Source: Candidatus Peregrinibacteria bacterium CG_4_9_14_0_2_um_filter_53_11 (GTDB taxonomy: Bacteria > Patescibacteriota > Gracilibacteria > UBA1369 > UM-FILTER-53-11). From it: 37,485 nucleotides of DNA. The translations under genes were made by a program, and so were the position numbers. The notes under the pieces are model-generated. The model was given only the letters and a program-made list of their open reading frames with translations. It had not been told where the DNA came from and ran no database searches. Position 1 is the stretch's first letter. Every line of letters starts with the position of its first letter. Positions 27,732 to 35,944 of this stretch are shown piece after piece. Location of the stretch: the NCBI GenBank assembly GCA_002788775.1, contig PFRX01000002.1:1-37485 (forward strand), written 5' to 3'.

Positions 27732-29003
27732 GTGACTGAAGCTCAGCACCGTTACCAAACCTTGAAGCAAAAGGGCATTCCTGCCGTGCTGTTTGAGGGT
27801 GGGTGGTTTGGATGCTGGTCGTTTGTGGTCGAGATCGATGCAGGAGTCGAGCCGCTACGGGGAGAAGAGGGGCTCGCGGAGATTCGTAGAGCTGTCGTAA
27901 CTCACCGTGAAAAGATGCAGTCCGCTTCACTTAATGATGAGGCCCCTTTTTCTGAAGGCTACGTTGGCTTTTTAGAATATGAGTTCGGGGAGCGGTGGGT
28001 TGACGTCTCACCCGGGGCAGCTGAGTCAGAGGGGGGAAGTGCGCTTTTTTATAAGACCAAAAAAGTCCACGCATTCAGAACAGAGTTGTCACCTTCTCCA
28101 TCAGCAACGGTGACTACTTCCGCCGGTGAGTCACCACCTGTAGCGCCACCGCCCTCCTACCAAAAAGCCTTTGCGGCCGTTCAGGAGGCCCTTTATTCCG
28201 GCGAGAGCTACCAGGTAAATTACTCCGAGGAGTTTATCGAGCCCTATGCCGGTGACCCTTTTGACCTTTACTGCCATCTTGCTAAGCTCAACCCTTCCTC
28301 TCACCAATGCTACTTCCCGCTCTTCTCTCTACCGCATGACGGGCCCTCGACGGAGTCCACGCCTACTCTCGGCTCTGCCCTTATCTCAAACTCGCCCGAA
28401 CTTCTTTTTACTCTCCAGGCTAATGGTAAGTTCACGAGCCGCCCTATCAAGGGGACGGCACCTCGCTTCGGTGATCCACTGCTCGACAGGCAGGCGGCCG
28501 AGGCTCTGGTGAAAAGTAACAAAGATGCGGCGGAGCTCATGATGATCGTCGATCTTGTTCGTAATGACATGGGGAAGGTTGCCCGGACTGGAAGCGTTGT
28601 TGTTGAAAAACACCGTGAGCTTGAGAGCTACTCAAACGTCTTCCATACCGTCTCGACCATCACCGCTCAGCTCCGCCCCGAGCTTGACTGGTACGATGCA
28701 CTGCGCGCCCTCTTCCCGGGAGGCTCGGTAACGGGCTGCCCTAAAAAGCGGACGATGGAGCTTATCCGTGAGTTAGAAAGGGGGAGGCGCAGTGCCTACT
28801 GTGGCTCAGCCGGTCTGATCGATCTCTCCGGAGCAGCAGAGTTTAACATCCTCATTCGCACCGCAACCTACCTCCCAAACAAAAAAGAACTGGTCTTCCG
28901 CTCAGGTGGTGGTCTCGTCGTCGACTCAACGTTGGAAGCCGAGTATGCCGAACTGTGCGACAAGGCGGAGGTTGTTCGCTCTGCGTTAGGTAGTGCTAAC
29001 TAG
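27732..29003 (+). CDS. pabB: Aminodeoxychorismate synthase component I (PabB)
   Basis: Converts chorismate and ammonia to 4-amino-4-deoxychorismate for p-aminobenzoate and folate. The 423-aa chorismate-binding domain has PIKGT (238-242), where Lys240 is the PabB-type lysine; TrpE proteins have Ala there. Also present are SPELL (221-225), DLVRNDMGKV, HTVSTI, PGGSVTGCPK and a final RSGGGLVVDS. It starts with GTG at 27732. No pabA glutaminase is in the window. The first 135 residues are shorter and less conserved than in E. coli PabB. Its 3' end overlaps the opposite-strand hypothetical gene by 18 nt. Confidence 0.93.
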   Translation: MTEAQHRYQTLKQKGIPAVLFEGGWFGCWSFVVEIDAGVEPLRGEEGLAEIRRAVVTHREKMQSASLNDEAPFSEGYVGFLEYEFGERWVDVSPGAAESEGGSALFYKTKKVHAFRTELSPSPSATVTTSAGESPPVAPPPSYQKAFAAVQEALYSGESYQVNYSEEFIEPYAGDPFDLYCHLAKLNPSSHQCYFPLFSLPHDGPSTESTPTLGSALISNSPELLFTLQANGKFTSRPIKGTAPRFGDPLLDRQAAEALVKSNKDAAELMMIVDLVRNDMGKVARTGSVVVEKHRELESYSNVFHTVSTITAQLRPELDWYDALRALFPGGSVTGCPKKRTMELIRELERGRRSAYCGSAGLIDLSGAAEFNILIRTATYLPNKKELVFRSGGGLVVDSTLEAEYAELCDKAEVVRSALGSAN

Positions 29004-29900: not shown

Positions 29901-29908
29901 AAGTGCCT

Positions 29909-29937
29909 ATTTTATGTATTTTGTGCAAAAAAGTCAA
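29909..29937 (-). promoter_or_regulatory. Promoter of the 304-aa gene
   Basis: Minus-strand -35 TTGACT (29932-29937), 17-bp spacer, -10 TAAAAT (29909-29914), 8 nt before the ATG at 29900. Confidence 0.7.
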
Positions 29938-29998
29938 GGCCGCGGGGGGGAGGCGCCTGAGTCTTGCCCGACGGGCTCTACCGCCGTATGCTAAGGCC

Positions 29999-30802
29999 AT
30001 GATCGTCTATCTCAATGGCAGATATCTTGATGCTCGGCAGGCTACTATTCCCGTCTTCGACCCCGGCTTTCTTTATGGAGATGGAATCTTCGAGACGATG
30101 CGGACCTATAATGGCCGTATCTTTCAGCTGGGGGAGCATCTCGACAGGCTTTTGGAGTCGGCTAAGACGCGCGGCTGGGAGTTGAGTTGGCGCCGTGACG
30201 AGCTCTCGAAAATTATCACCAAGACTGTGGCTCGCAACGGCTATCCCGACTCTCGCATTCGTGTGACCATCACTCCCGGCGTGGAAAAACCGACACTTTT
30301 TGTCTGGGTGCAGCCTCTCGATAAGCTCGCGGGGACGGCCTATTCTCAGGGCGTTTCGGCGATAACATTTCCCCTCGAGCGTGCCTTCCCCCGTATGAAA
30401 ACAACCAGTATGCAGCCCCTGTTAATCGCTCGTGTTGAGATGGAGAAGCGCGGCGCCTTCGAGGCTCTTCTGGTCAATCATAAGGGCAATGTTACCGAAG
30501 GAACGTGGACTAACCTCTTTATTGTAAAAGATAACGAGATTATCACTCCCAAACTGGGCGTTCTTTTGGGGAAGACGCGTGATAGTGTAATTGAGTGTGC
30601 ACGTCATAGCGCGACGGTCTCCGAGAAAAATATTCCGCTCGACAGTCTCTTGCAGGCCGACGAATGTTTCGTTACCAACTCAACAAAGGGTATAGTTCCG
30701 GTCGTGCGGGTAGATGGGGCCAAGATCGCCAACGGAAAGCCCGGCCCGGTAACGAAAAAACTTATGAAGGCGCTCCGCGAGATGATGACTAACGCCGACT
30801 AA
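29999..30802 (+). CDS. pabC: Class IV aminotransferase, probable aminodeoxychorismate lyase PabC
   Basis: A PLP enzyme of 267 aa. PGFLYGDGIFETMR (22-35) is the fold-type IV signature, Lys134 in PRMKTTS is the PLP lysine, and TEGTWTNLFIV is the cofactor-phosphate region. ADECFVTNSTKGIVPV is conserved. PabC, branched-chain and D-amino-acid aminotransferases share these features. The neighbours pabB and folP make 4-amino-4-deoxychorismate lyase (p-aminobenzoate formation) the best reading, but not a certain one. The ATG at 29999 is chosen because family members begin right there; a longer frame from 29903 runs through the neighbour's promoter. folP follows after 10 nt. Confidence 0.85.
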   Translation: MIVYLNGRYLDARQATIPVFDPGFLYGDGIFETMRTYNGRIFQLGEHLDRLLESAKTRGWELSWRRDELSKIITKTVARNGYPDSRIRVTITPGVEKPTLFVWVQPLDKLAGTAYSQGVSAITFPLERAFPRMKTTSMQPLLIARVEMEKRGAFEALLVNHKGNVTEGTWTNLFIVKDNEIITPKLGVLLGKTRDSVIECARHSATVSEKNIPLDSLLQADECFVTNSTKGIVPVVRVDGAKIANGKPGPVTKKLMKALREMMTNAD

Positions 30803-30812
30803 CCCAAACTAT

Positions 30813-31619
30813 ATGGTGAGCAACCCTCTCATTATGGGTGTTCTGAATCTTACGCCCGACTCGTTCTCGGATGGGGGCCGGTACACCACGGTCTCGCGAG
30901 CCCTTAAACGTGCTGCCGACATGGTTCGGGAGGGAGTCGATATTATAGATGTGGGAGGGGAGTCGACCGGCCCGGGGAGTTCGGATGTCTCGCTTAAATC
31001 AGAGCTTGAGCGGGTTATCCCCCTGATAAAAAAACTCCACACAACCTATCCGCGGCTCACGATCTCGGTCGATACTTACAAGGCCGAGGTCGCTCGCCAG
31101 GCGGTCGCGGCAGGTGCGCGGATGATTAACGATGTTACGGCACTTCGGGGTGATGAGGCGATGGTTTCCGTCGTTGCCGAGTCGGGAGTGCCCCTAGTGA
31201 TGATGTACTCAAAAGATACGTCGGCTCGAACAACTCGGACTAAGCGCCGCTATGTGGACGTGGTGAAAACGGTGAAGGCATTTTTAGAAGAGCGGGTGAG
31301 GTATGCTCGAGCTCAAGGAGTTGCCAAAGAGCAACTTATCCTCGACCCCGGCATGGGGGCTTTTGTTAGCGGCCTGCCTCAGTACAGCTACGAGATTTTG
31401 GCTCGGCTGGATGAGCTCGCTAAACTCGGCTACCCGATCTTGGTGGGTGCCTCACGGAAGTCTTTTCTGGGCGGGCCCCTCGAGGAGCGCCTCATCCCCA
31501 CGCTTGTGGCTCACACGGTCGCACTCCAAAACGGCGCGAGCATCGTGCGCGTCCATGATGTTAAGGAGCACAGGCAGCTGCTTACTTCTCTGCGTTCTTC
31601 TTCGCAGTGGGAGAGGTAG
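30813..31619 (+). CDS. folP: Dihydropteroate synthase
   Basis: Joins p-aminobenzoate to 6-hydroxymethyl-7,8-dihydropterin diphosphate to give dihydropteroate. The 268-aa TIM-barrel protein has the first signature IMGVLNLTPDSFSDGG (7-22), the second DIIDVGGESTGPGS, the sugar-barrel NDVTAL, ILDPGMGAF, and VGASRKSFLG with the conserved Ser-Arg-Lys. It is in one operon with pabC. The 3' end overlaps a small minus-strand gene by 38 nt. Confidence 0.96.
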   Translation: MVSNPLIMGVLNLTPDSFSDGGRYTTVSRALKRAADMVREGVDIIDVGGESTGPGSSDVSLKSELERVIPLIKKLHTTYPRLTISVDTYKAEVARQAVAAGARMINDVTALRGDEAMVSVVAESGVPLVMMYSKDTSARTTRTKRRYVDVVKTVKAFLEERVRYARAQGVAKEQLILDPGMGAFVSGLPQYSYEILARLDELAKLGYPILVGASRKSFLGGPLEERLIPTLVAHTVALQNGASIVRVHDVKEHRQLLTSLRSSSQWER

Positions 31620-31891: not shown

Positions 31892-32254
31892 ATGTTTCTC
31901 TCTCGCATCTTTTCATTTTCGGCTGCTCATCATCTTACCAACTACCACGGTGCCTGCGAGCGTCCGCATGGTCATACTTATCGTCTGAAGATAACTGTTG
32001 AAGGTGAGATTCGGCCCGATGGACTGATCCTGGATTTTGTTGAGTTGAAGCGTGTTGTAAACGAGCGTGTCCTTGAAAAACTCGACCACACGGATCTTAA
32101 TGACCGATTCGAAAATCCCTCTGCCGAGCTCATTACGGAGTGGATCGCCGAGCAGCTTTCCCCAATTGGCGAGCTCACAAAAACTCAGGTTCGCCTCGCC
32201 GAGATTGAGTTATGGGAGGGCGATACTACTTCTGTCCGAAAGGTAATTTCCTAA
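31892..32254 (+). CDS. queD: 6-carboxy-tetrahydropterin synthase QueD homolog, possibly bifunctional PTPS-I/III
   Basis: A COG0720 enzyme of 120 aa. FSFSAAHHL (7-15) gives the first zinc histidine, and HGH (26-28) gives the other two. Asp65-His66 in LDHTDLN complete the catalytic set. QueD converts dihydroneopterin triphosphate to 6-carboxy-tetrahydropterin for preQ0. The motif reads CERPHGH: catalytic Cys22 is followed by Glu23, whereas ordinary QueD has CxxxHGH without that Glu. A CE pair is the mark of PTPS-I/III proteins, which also form 6-hydroxymethyl-dihydropterin and replace FolB. With folP and folK adjacent and no folB here, a dual role is likely but unproven. Confidence 0.93.
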   Translation: MFLSRIFSFSAAHHLTNYHGACERPHGHTYRLKITVEGEIRPDGLILDFVELKRVVNERVLEKLDHTDLNDRFENPSAELITEWIAEQLSPIGELTKTQVRLAEIELWEGDTTSVRKVIS

Positions 32255-32257
32255 TTT

Positions 32258-32842
32258 ATGGAGATAGAGAGAAAGATTTTGGAGATCGACGTGGCTGATC
32301 TTCGACAAAAAATCGAGCGGCTTAGTCCACCCCCCGAGTGCACTTTTAGCGGGCTTGTTCGGGTGCGCTACTTCGACTTCCCCGATGAGCGCATTAAAAA
32401 TGCTCGCGATCTATTGCGGTTAAGGACCTTTGTTTTTGATGATAAGACGGCCGCCCCCTACACCGAGTTCGTCTATAAAACGTACAAAGGCGTTCGCAAG
32501 GGGGCGAAATTTTTCAAGGAAGATGAGCTGCGATTTGAGGATGATAAGCAGTACGAGAAACTCTCGAAAATTCTCATCGACTTGGGGCTGAAAAAGACCG
32601 CTGAGTACGAGAAAAAGCGTATCCACTACCGCTGGGGAGAGCTGGCTTTTGAGATTGATGAGTACCCGGAGCTTCCGCCTTTTGTGGAGATTGAGGCCGC
32701 CTCGCCCAGTGCGATAGATGCGGTCGTCGCCTTCCTTGAATTGAGTGGGCACGAGCAGACGCCCGAGACGATTAACGAGCTTCTCGCCCGTAAGTATCCT
32801 CGGAAAAAGCTGGATGGTTTGGTTTTTAAAAAAGTACGTTAG
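32258..32842 (+). CDS. CYTH-domain protein (class IV adenylate cyclase / triphosphatase-like)
   Basis: A 194-aa CYTH protein. The family signature ExExK is at the very start (Glu2-Ile-Glu4-Arg-Lys6). LLRLRTF, FVYKTYKG, KKRIHYRW and FEIDEYPELPPFVEIE supply the charged residues that line the tunnel barrel for triphosphate and metal. Family members act as class IV adenylate cyclases, thiamine triphosphatases or inorganic triphosphatases; I cannot tell which. It lies 3 nt after queD and 2 nt before folK, so it is co-translated with pterin enzymes. A pterin or nucleotide triphosphate substrate is possible, but that is speculation. Confidence 0.87.
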   Translation: MEIERKILEIDVADLRQKIERLSPPPECTFSGLVRVRYFDFPDERIKNARDLLRLRTFVFDDKTAAPYTEFVYKTYKGVRKGAKFFKEDELRFEDDKQYEKLSKILIDLGLKKTAEYEKKRIHYRWGELAFEIDEYPELPPFVEIEAASPSAIDAVVAFLELSGHEQTPETINELLARKYPRKKLDGLVFKKVR

Positions 32843-32844
32843 CT

Positions 32845-33405
32845 ATGGCGGAGGTTATTCTCTCACTCGGCTCAAATCAAGGTGATCGAGAGGCTTCACT
32901 CGCTCAGGCGCTCGCGCTTCTTCCGCTTGAAAATCTCAAACTTTCTCGGCTTTATCGCTCCGAGCCATGGGGTGAGGTTGAGGGGGAAGGTGAGTTTCTC
33001 AATCAAGTCGTCTCCGTCTCAACGAGACTTTCTCCGGAGGATCTTTTGGAGGAGATCAAGCTTGTTGAACAGAAACTTGGTCGCACTCGTCCAGACGCTG
33101 TTCCTCTTCAGGGTCTTCCCGCAGGGCCTAAAAAATCCGGCCGGCACTACCTCCCACGGCCCATCGACATCGACATACTCTTTTACGACACCCTCATTTA
33201 TTCATCTTCGCATCTCACGATTCCGCACCCACTTATTGCCGAGCGTCGCTTTGTCCTGCTCCCGTTGGCTGAGCTTTTGCCGGAGTACCAGCATCCGGTT
33301 CTAAAAAAAACACTGCGTCAGTTGTTGAATGAATGCGAGGATGCCTCTATAGTGGAACCGCTTTATGACGATACAGGGACTTCAAAAACTCGCGACTCAG
33401 TTTAG
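32845..33405 (+). CDS. folK: 6-hydroxymethyl-7,8-dihydropterin pyrophosphokinase
   Basis: Transfers pyrophosphate from ATP to 6-hydroxymethyl-dihydropterin, supplying the substrate for FolP. The 186-aa protein has LSLGSNQGDRE (6-16), the SRLYRSEPWG pterin loop, FLNQVV, and the signature RPIDIDILFYD with its two metal-binding Asp residues, then IPHPLIAERRFVLLPLAE. The length is slightly above the typical 160 because of a C-terminal tail that overlaps the transketolase gene by 41 nt in another frame. Confidence 0.95.
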   Translation: MAEVILSLGSNQGDREASLAQALALLPLENLKLSRLYRSEPWGEVEGEGEFLNQVVSVSTRLSPEDLLEEIKLVEQKLGRTRPDAVPLQGLPAGPKKSGRHYLPRPIDIDILFYDTLIYSSSHLTIPHPLIAERRFVLLPLAELLPEYQHPVLKKTLRQLLNECEDASIVEPLYDDTGTSKTRDSV

Positions 33406-34222
33406 AATCGACATTCTCAACACAGTCTTTCAGGCTGGGTCAGGTCATGTTACCACCTCTCTTTCCGCGATCGACATTATCACCATGCTTTACTTTGGTG
33501 ATATCGATGGACAGCCGATCATGCGCTACGATCCACACAAGCCTCAGTGGGATGGGCGCGACTACTTTATCTTGAGCAAGGGGCATGGCTGCCCGGCTCT
33601 GTATGTGGTACTCGCCGAGCTCGGATTCTTTCCCAAGGATGAGCTTAATCATCTCCGTCAGCTGGGTGCTCTTCTTGAAGGTCACCCGGTTCGCAAGATC
33701 CCCGGAGTTGAGGCCAATACCGGCCCACTCGGCCAGGGAATTTCATTTGCAAACGGCATAGGGCTTGCGATGAAGATGGATAAAAAGTCGAACCGTATTT
33801 ATGTAGTCTGCGGTGATGGTGAGCTTCAGGAAGGACAGATCTGGGAGTCGGCCATGACGGCGGCTCAGTACAAGCTCGATAACGTCACGGTCTTCATTGA
33901 TAACAACAAGCTGCAGCAGACCAACTTTGTTACCGCGATCAAACCCGTCGCTCCCATCGGTCAGAAGTTTTCGGCCTTTGGTTGGAACGTCATTAACGTC
34001 GCGGACGGACACAACTTTGACGAGCTCCAGAACGCAATCGGGCGTGCTTGGAGGACGAAGCAGCGTCCCACGGTTATCGTCTGCGACACGATCAAAGGTA
34101 AGGGGATTCCTTTTGCAGAACAGAAGCCGGAGTACCATGGTGTTCCTCTTTCAAAAGAAGAGATGGCAGAGGCCGTTCCTTATCTGGAAAGGCAGCTCGC
34201 CGCTTTGACTAGTCAGAAATAA
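33365..34222 (+). CDS. Transketolase, N-terminal (thiamine diphosphate-binding) subunit
   Basis: A 285-aa half-transketolase. SGHVTTSLSAIDIITMLYF, SKGHGCPALYVVLAE and GPLGQGISFANGIG are the Pyr/PP-interface motifs, and the thiamine diphosphate motif GDGELQEGQIWES to FIDNNKLQQ is complete. It needs a C-terminal subunit, which is very probably the gene starting at 37051, 2.8 kb downstream. Together they act in the non-oxidative pentose phosphate pathway. It overlaps folK by 41 nt and is followed by queF after 3 nt, so it is embedded in the pterin/queuosine operon. Confidence 0.93.
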   Translation: MTIQGLQKLATQFRIDILNTVFQAGSGHVTTSLSAIDIITMLYFGDIDGQPIMRYDPHKPQWDGRDYFILSKGHGCPALYVVLAELGFFPKDELNHLRQLGALLEGHPVRKIPGVEANTGPLGQGISFANGIGLAMKMDKKSNRIYVVCGDGELQEGQIWESAMTAAQYKLDNVTVFIDNNKLQQTNFVTAIKPVAPIGQKFSAFGWNVINVADGHNFDELQNAIGRAWRTKQRPTVIVCDTIKGKGIPFAEQKPEYHGVPLSKEEMAEAVPYLERQLAALTSQK

Positions 34223-34225
34223 CTT

Positions 34226-34681
34226 ATGCCAAAGAAGACTCAGAAGACCGCCTTTAAGCTCTACCGGGAGGGGGCCGACTATCAGCAGATCGATCTCAAA
34301 AAGCTGCGTGCTTTTTTGAAGGCGCAAACTCCTCTGGAGACCTTTGAGTTCGAAGAGGTTAGTAAGGGCGAGCACTGGATCTCGATCTCGACTCCGGAGC
34401 TCACGAACATCTGTCCCTTCACCGACTATCCGGATTTTGGCAGTGTGTTGATCGAGTATGTGCCCCGTAAAAAATGTTTGGAGCTCAAGTCGCTCAAGCT
34501 CTACATCAACGCCTTTCGAGATATCAAAATTTTCCATGAGGCTCTCACAGAGGTTATCTTCGCGGACTTCCTCGACGTGGTGAAGCCACGCAAAGCTCGG
34601 ATTATTGTCGATATGAATGTTCGTGGGAACGTCAAAACAATCTGTAAAAAGCACTACAACACCGTATCGCCGAGCGCATGA
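34226..34681 (+). CDS. queF: NADPH-dependent 7-cyano-7-deazaguanine reductase QueF
   Basis: Reduces the nitrile of preQ0 to the amine preQ1. This is the short, unimodular type (151 aa). ELTNICPFTDYPDFG holds the nucleophile Cys63 and the acid Asp70, 7 apart, and FHE places His104-Glu105, 41 after the Cys. Both spacings equal those of the B. subtilis enzyme. KCLELKSLKLYINAFRD is the NADPH/substrate region. It ends in ATGA, overlapping the queE start by 4 nt. The TGA stop is one of very few in this window. Confidence 0.95.
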   Translation: MPKKTQKTAFKLYREGADYQQIDLKKLRAFLKAQTPLETFEFEEVSKGEHWISISTPELTNICPFTDYPDFGSVLIEYVPRKKCLELKSLKLYINAFRDIKIFHEALTEVIFADFLDVVKPRKARIIVDMNVRGNVKTICKKHYNTVSPSA

Positions 34682-35316
34682 TACTCAACGAGGTTTTTTA
34701 CTCAGTTCAAGGGGAGGGTAAGAATGCCGGTCAGCCGGCCGTTTTTGTGCGCTTCGGAAACTGCAACTTAAAGTGCAGCTGGTGTGATACCAAGTACACC
34801 TGGCATCCGGACCTTCAAGATAACACCTCTGTTGAACTCGCAGCGGTTTACGAAAAAGTTCGTGCCTATCCCCAGTGCAAGCACCTCATCTTAACGGGCG
34901 GTGAGCCTATGCTCCAGCAGGATGCCATTCGCGCTCTCCGTTCCGAGTTTCCGGACTACTACATCGAGGTGGAGACGAACGGTAGCCAGCCTGTGAGCTG
35001 TTATGACGAGGTCGACCTCTTTACCGTCTCATACAAGACGAGCAACTCAGGTAACCCACCTTACGAACTTAAGACGCGCAATGATAAGTGCATCTACAAG
35101 TTCGTCGTCTGCTCACGGAACGACTTTGGAGAGATCGAAGAAGTTATCTCTCGTTATGAGCTGCCCGCCTCTTCCATCTACCTTATGCCCGAGGGGGTGA
35201 GCCGGGATGCTCTCCTTGAAAAGCAGCCTTTCATTGTCGATTACTGTGCTCAGCGCGGCTATAATTTCACCTCCCGACTTCACATCTTAACCTGGGGCGA
35301 TAAGCGTGGCGTTTAG
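34678..35316 (+). CDS. queE: 7-carboxy-7-deazaguanine synthase QueE (radical SAM)
   Basis: Radical-SAM enzyme that converts 6-carboxy-tetrahydropterin to 7-carboxy-7-deazaguanine. The 212-aa protein starts MILNEVFYSVQGEG. The cluster motif Cys29-x3-Cys33-x2-Cys36 (CNLKCSWCDTKYTWH) is intact, and LTGGEPMLQ and VETNGSQPV bind SAM. The product is passed to QueC, encoded 10 nt downstream. The start is fixed by the 4-nt overlap with queF. Confidence 0.95.
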   Translation: MILNEVFYSVQGEGKNAGQPAVFVRFGNCNLKCSWCDTKYTWHPDLQDNTSVELAAVYEKVRAYPQCKHLILTGGEPMLQQDAIRALRSEFPDYYIEVETNGSQPVSCYDEVDLFTVSYKTSNSGNPPYELKTRNDKCIYKFVVCSRNDFGEIEEVISRYELPASSIYLMPEGVSRDALLEKQPFIVDYCAQRGYNFTSRLHILTWGDKRGV

Positions 35317-35326
35317 CAGTTAGCCT

Positions 35327-35944
35327 ATGAAAACACTCCTCATTTACTCCGGTGGAATGGACTCAACGACCCTCCTCTACAAGCTTTTGGCCGATGGGGA
35401 TGAGGTCCGTTGTATATCTTTCGATTACGGGCAGCGACACAAGAAGGAGCTGGAGTATGCGCGCCGGATTTGCGAAGAACTCGGGGTCGAGCACAGTATT
35501 ATTGATGTCCGCTCGCTCAACGAGCTGATGCAGGGGTCTGCACTGACCTCCGATATCCCCGTGCCGGAAGGTCACTATGAAGATGAGAACATGAAACAGA
35601 CGGTTGTTCCTAACCGCAATATGATCTTCATCTCCCTTGCGATGGCTCAGGCGATCTCGCTTGGATTCGAGCGGGTAGCGCTTGCCGTTCACGCCGGAGA
35701 CCACGCGATCTATCCCGACTGTAGGCCCATTTTTATCCAAAAAATGCAGGCGGTAGCCGCCATAGCGAACTACGAAAAACTAGATGTTTTTGCACCATTT
35801 TTGACTATGAGCAAAGGCGAAATAGCGGAGGTTGGACGTGAGCTCGGTGTCCCGTTCGAAAAGACCTGGACTTGTTATAAAGGTCTTGCGGAGCCCTGTG
35901 GAAAGTGCGGGTCATGTGTCGAGAGAGGGGAGGCGCTTGGTTAG
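35327..35944 (+). CDS. queC: 7-cyano-7-deazaguanine synthase QueC
   Basis: ATP-dependent conversion of 7-carboxy-7-deazaguanine to preQ0. The 205-aa protein has the PP-loop SGGMDSTT (8-15), FDYGQRHKKEL, VPNRNMIF, the AVHAGDHAIYPDCRP substrate loop, and the zinc site made of a Cys in TWTCYKG with CGKCGSC. It is about 25 residues shorter than the E. coli enzyme because the C-terminal helix stops right after the zinc site. It is the last gene of the run that begins at queD. Confidence 0.96.
   Translation: MKTLLIYSGGMDSTTLLYKLLADGDEVRCISFDYGQRHKKELEYARRICEELGVEHSIIDVRSLNELMQGSALTSDIPVPEGHYEDENMKQTVVPNRNMIFISLAMAQAISLGFERVALAVHAGDHAIYPDCRPIFIQKMQAVAAIANYEKLDVFAPFLTMSKGEIAEVGRELGVPFEKTWTCYKGLAEPCGKCGSCVERGEALG

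Follow-up and report, generated by a model that had tools for sequence, protein, structure and literature searches.

A candidate PTPS-I/III-type enzyme with a CExxHGH motif in a folate and preQ1 gene run of Candidatus Peregrinibacteria bacterium CG_4_9_14_0_2_um_filter_53_11

Features of the locus

The window, the whole stretch of 37,485 nucleotides that was analyzed, carries a run of genes in the order pabB, pabC-like, folP, PTPS, CYTH, folK, transketolase N-terminal subunit, queF, queE and queC (Table 1). The PTPS reading frame extends from ATG to stop and encodes 120 amino acids. The original prediction had described a tight run of folate and queuosine genes with folP immediately upstream of this frame. 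Profile matches confirmed folP, folK, queF, queE and queC, and the position of folP upstream, but 272 bases separate the end of folP from the PTPS start, and two genes that had been overlooked are interspersed, the CYTH gene between PTPS and folK and the transketolase gene between folK and queF. The latter opens a pentose-phosphate cluster in relatives. The RNA families found in the window are three tRNAs and nothing else.

Table 1. Features of the folate and preQ1 gene run, with window coordinates
Feature	Position	Strand	Evidence or remark
pabB-like aminodeoxychorismate synthase component I	27732..29003	+	TIGR01824/TIGR00553, about 280 bits, below cut-offs
pabC-like aminotransferase class IV (aminodeoxychorismate lyase or BCAT-like)	29903..30802	+	profile; conserved position in folate runs
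folP, dihydropteroate synthase	30813..31619	+	TIGR01496, 294.8 bits
PTPS-I/III-type enzyme (COG0720), CExxHGH; proposed FolB bypass and QueD	31892..32254	+	ORF, profiles, AlphaFold2 model
codons of C22-E23-R24-P25-H26-G27-H28	31955..31975	+	QueD Cys, PTPS-III Glu, two zinc-ligand His
CYTH-domain protein (triphosphate-tunnel type)	32258..32842	+	PF01928, 1.2e-7
folK, HMDHP pyrophosphokinase	32845..33405	+	TIGR01498, 109 bits; PF01288
transketolase N-terminal subunit	33365..34222	+	PF00456, 5e-54
queF, preQ1 synthase	34226..34681	+	TIGR03139, 112.8 bits
queE, radical-SAM 7-carboxy-7-deazaguanine synthase	34678..35316	+	QueE subfamily models, best 123.9 bits, below every subfamily cut-off
queC	35327..35944	+	TIGR00364, 216.7 bits

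Motif and structure of the PTPS protein

The translation bears out the predicted motif: residues 22-28 read CERPHGH, with Cys22 and Glu23 adjacent. The protein matches the Pfam family PTPS (PF01242) at 5e-30 and barely reaches the NCBIfam model for QueD (TIGR03367; 89.3 bits against a cut-off of 89.25). The zinc-histidine framework of COG0720 is present, with H13, H26, H28, D65, H66 and E109 among the residues that are invariant in PTPS homologues. The AlphaFold2 model (pLDDT 96.6) has E. coli QueD as its nearest solved fold (Z 17.9, rmsd 1.1-1.2 Å, 112-113 residues superposed), followed by the ExxHGH protein PH0634 of Pyrococcus (Z 17.8) and the PTPS-II enzymes of human and rat (Z 16.6-16.7). 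The best PDB match by sequence is PH0634, ahead of QueD. As judged from the model, the subfamilies are not told apart by fold. The shared fold would also suit a PTPS-II making 6-pyruvoyl-tetrahydropterin for tetrahydrobiopterin, but the CxxxxxHGH motif of that subfamily is absent from the protein, in which three residues separate the Cys from HGH, and no biopterin genes were seen in the neighborhood; this reading is extremely improbable.

Both the Cys of CxxxHGH and the Glu of ExxHGH are thus present. Cys22 aligns with the QueD Cys, and C22xxxH26 occurs together with preQ0 gene neighbors (queF, queE and queC in the run), as in PTPS-I. Glu23 falls in the alignment column of the Plasmodium PTPS Glu (FRETLHGH), a residue (E37) that PDB titles name as catalytic, as in PTPS-III. 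Proteins with both residues are said to have rescued an E. coli folB mutant in work by Pribat and colleagues from 2009, in which Cys-only proteins reportedly failed. The FolB bypass has been based on a Glu that replaces or accompanies the Cys (PMC5615194). The assignment of proteins with both residues to PTPS-I/III, which had been proposed for this protein, agrees with the literature, where CExxHGH is the signature of PTPS-I/III hybrids able to work in the folate and queuosine pathways (PMC5041015).

Conservation among relatives

The survey took in 99 genomes from the family, order and class of this organism; 71 of them carry a PTPS, one each. A contig scan gave one further relative, from Synergistota, so that 72 proteins were compared. 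Cys22 and Glu23 are invariant in all of them (72/72) and are among the few invariant columns of the alignment. Pairwise identity among the PTPS proteins from genomes without queC averages about 52% (minimum 36%). The position of Glu23 is occupied by Gly in the QueDs of E. coli and P. aeruginosa and in 78/78 viral QueD motifs, a control biased to close E. coli-like QueDs by one of its two search patterns, C[GE]R[LP]HGH[ST], which did permit Glu.

In several relatives (L058, L062, L070, L074 and others) the PTPS has 145-154 amino acids; the Pfam match ends near model position 95, beyond which the C-terminal region is extended and divergent. The relative from outside the class, in Synergistota bacterium L-13 (L002, CP074691.1, 6001-6381), is 56% identical to the window protein, has CExxHGH and is directly followed downstream by a DHPS (folP-type) sequence. 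Horizontal transfer involving this distant phylum is possible.

Phylogenetic placement, which had been proposed as a check, set the protein outside the plain QueDs on a branch with SH-aLRT 97 (15 plain QueDs, few columns, short search). The tree was built on 124 columns only, and its placement of PH0634 and the animal PTPS, which have long branches, is unreliable. The state of queC changes at least eight times over the PTPS tree; therefore the same enzyme appears to have been used repeatedly with and without the pathway.

Folate pathway

No FolB match was found in the window, in agreement with the original prediction, and the search of the whole genome (1.2 Mb assembly, 99% complete) by Pfam profile, put forward as a check, likewise found none. 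The genome encodes exactly one PTPS; a second was sought throughout the assembly and not found. FolE is encoded on another contig (C40), and the other folate-pathway genes were found in a search that did not include folC. Because thyA adjoins folA in the same genome, folate is evidently used in this organism.

Across the clade, FolB is replaced by PTPS. PTPS without FolB is the pattern in 69 of the 74 genomes that carry folK. Three others (G010, G091, G093) encode FolB but lack PTPS, two lack both proteins, and no genome encodes the two together. PTPS and folK are associated: over all 99 genomes, both are present in 69, folK without PTPS in five, PTPS without folK in two and neither in 23 (Fisher 1e-15, phylogeny not corrected for). 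On the same strand, folP, folK or folE lies near PTPS in 66/72 neighborhoods, whether que genes are present or not. The run pabB-pabC-folP-PTPS-CYTH-folK is common to relatives that lack que genes, including members of other families (G006 in L042, G012 in L078), and queF-queE-queC follow it only in the family of this organism. Co-occurrence, the exclusion of FolB and operon context together strongly support the view that the PTPS takes the place of the missing FolB in the folate pathway, a role that the genome comparison makes almost certain.

A plain QueD in which a Glu happens to follow the Cys, with folate imported or another substitute for FolB, would account for the TIGR03367 score just above the cut-off and for E. 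coli QueD as the nearest solved fold. Against it stand the invariant Glu, at a position that is Gly in the QueDs of viruses, E. coli and P. aeruginosa, the placement in the tree, the mutual exclusion of FolB and PTPS, and the 47 genomes that have the enzyme and no queC, in which QueD has no known job. A chance Glu was rejected on the first three of these grounds (72/72 Cys-Glu against the Gly of viral QueDs, the tree and the FolB/PTPS exclusion), and the reading as a whole is very improbable.

Queuosine pathway

Intact queF, queE and queC stand beside the PTPS gene. QueC was found at over 200 bits in 26 genomes, and in 24 of these the sole PTPS is a single CExxHGH protein, with nothing else to serve as QueD. 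Operon membership with queF, queE and queC and the lack of any other PTPS make it likely that the enzyme also supplies the QueD step. Because the folate run exists in relatives without que genes and queF-queE-queC follow it in one family only, the simplest reading is that an ancestral PTPS of the folate operon doubles as QueD, not the reverse (polarity inferred, not reconstructed).

Cys22 is invariant also in the 47 PTPS-carrying genomes that lack queC, and therefore the motif alone is no proof of queuosine function. Loss of the Cys where queC is missing, expected if it served QueD only, was not seen in these genomes, and no motif switch occurred; the folate reaction, or the structure, may depend on Cys22. 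Most of these relatives retain TGT and QueA, which suggests that they salvage preQ1, or a base related to it, and do not synthesize it.

TGT and QueA were not found in the present assembly, whereas TGT occurs in 89/99 and QueA in 77/99 relatives. In siblings (L082-L086), tgt, ruvA and an HD-domain gene are contiguous, and BLAST with a permissive threshold recovered none of the three from the present assembly, which is 99% complete. A loss specific to TGT was rejected since the three genes are absent together, which makes an assembly gap likelier than loss of TGT alone; the absence of TGT is thus probably a hole in the assembly. A sigma-like gene that adjoins the tgt block in siblings stands in another context here, so that the gap reading falls short of proof. 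QueA is absent from 2/5 siblings as well.

An enzyme for folate only, which would replace FolB and keep its Cys for another reason while the QueD step came from some other, unseen source, is consistent with the gene's place in the folate run of genomes without que genes, where the Cys is invariant, and with the missing TGT and QueA. It is opposed by the intact queF, queE and queC in the same run, which need a QueD, and by the lack of another PTPS here and in the other 23 PTPS-carrying genomes with queC. This alternative is unlikely, though the least so of the three considered. For a Rickettsia protein with a canonical site, a single enzyme for both pathways has been argued to be unlikely (PMC5615194).

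Two observations on relatives concern the same pathway. The class relative G096 (98% complete) has QueC, TGT and QueA and lacks PTPS, FolE and HPPK, and thus has the queuosine pathway minus its first two steps. In G097 (C13:34929-36023) the TGT match spans six in-frame TGA codons, as expected under UGA recoding; UGA is recoded as Gly in Gracilibacteria/Absconditabacteria.

Proposed function

The gene is best explained as encoding a PTPS-I/III-type COG0720 enzyme that probably serves both folate biosynthesis (FolB bypass) and queuosine biosynthesis (QueD). FolE would supply 7,8-dihydroneopterin triphosphate. For folate, Glu23 would be the acid-base residue, like its counterpart in Plasmodium PTPS-III, and cleavage of the side chain would give 6-hydroxymethyl-dihydropterin, which would pass to FolK and FolP with FolB replaced; with Cys22 acting as in QueD, 6-carboxytetrahydropterin would be made for QueE, QueC and QueF. 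Both activities, their location in one active site and the fate of preQ1 are predicted from the genes and the motif. The original prediction had made this enzyme the branch point of both pathways. Its folate half has strong support from co-occurrence, the exclusion of FolB and operon context; its queuosine half gains from the operon with queF, queE and queC and the single PTPS, and is weakened by the TGT and QueA that the assembly lacks and by the Cys22 of the 47 genomes without queC.

In 13/71 genomes, spread over three families, a CYTH gene comes directly 3' of PTPS, as it does in the window and in L078, L080 and L037-L041; seven of the 13 lack queC. According to enzyme nomenclature, inorganic triphosphate is a product of both the PTPS and the QueD reaction, and a FolB bypass by retro-aldol cleavage would release glycolaldehyde triphosphate. 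As a hypothesis, the adjacent triphosphate-tunnel enzyme could clear the triphosphate product of PTPS. A more speculative and rather doubtful extension is that the CExxHGH enzyme is primarily a folate enzyme, with both residues taking part in the FolB bypass and the Cys selected even without queuosine, and that the CYTH protein is a dedicated helper hydrolysing the triphosphate released (inorganic, or glycolaldehyde triphosphate if the cleavage is retro-aldol).

Significance and comparison with known systems

A small-genome bacterial order appears to manage without FolB. For five complete Peribacteria genomes, folate biosynthesis genes were reported as not identified (PMC4736985); an unrecognized FolB bypass is the kind of step that such annotation can miss. 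Relatives that have the preQ1 pathway and relatives that lack it share this CExxHGH enzyme, and so offer a natural experiment for separating what Cys and Glu each do. They also caution against deducing queuosine synthesis from the presence of the Cys by itself.

Dual-motif enzymes are already known, and the present case extends them, with good support, to a bacterium with a small genome and to the whole of its order. E. coli QueD (PTPS-I) has the same fold, Cys, zinc histidines and Asp-His pair; its motif is CGRLHGH, with Gly where the window protein has Glu. The PTPS-III enzymes of bacteria and Plasmodium, as described in PMC5041015 after Pribat et al. 2009 and Hyde et al. 2008, share the Glu two residues before HGH, the folate neighbors and the replacement of FolB, but the window protein keeps the QueD Cys beside the Glu, where Plasmodium has Arg. 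The closest likeness is to the PTPS-I/III hybrids of Phillips et al. 2012, which in the account given by PMC5041015 have the same CExxHGH, lack FolB, and combine folate and queuosine genes with one PTPS; unlike in that account, the candidate enzyme described here belongs to an order-wide folate operon to which queF-queE-queC have been added in one family.
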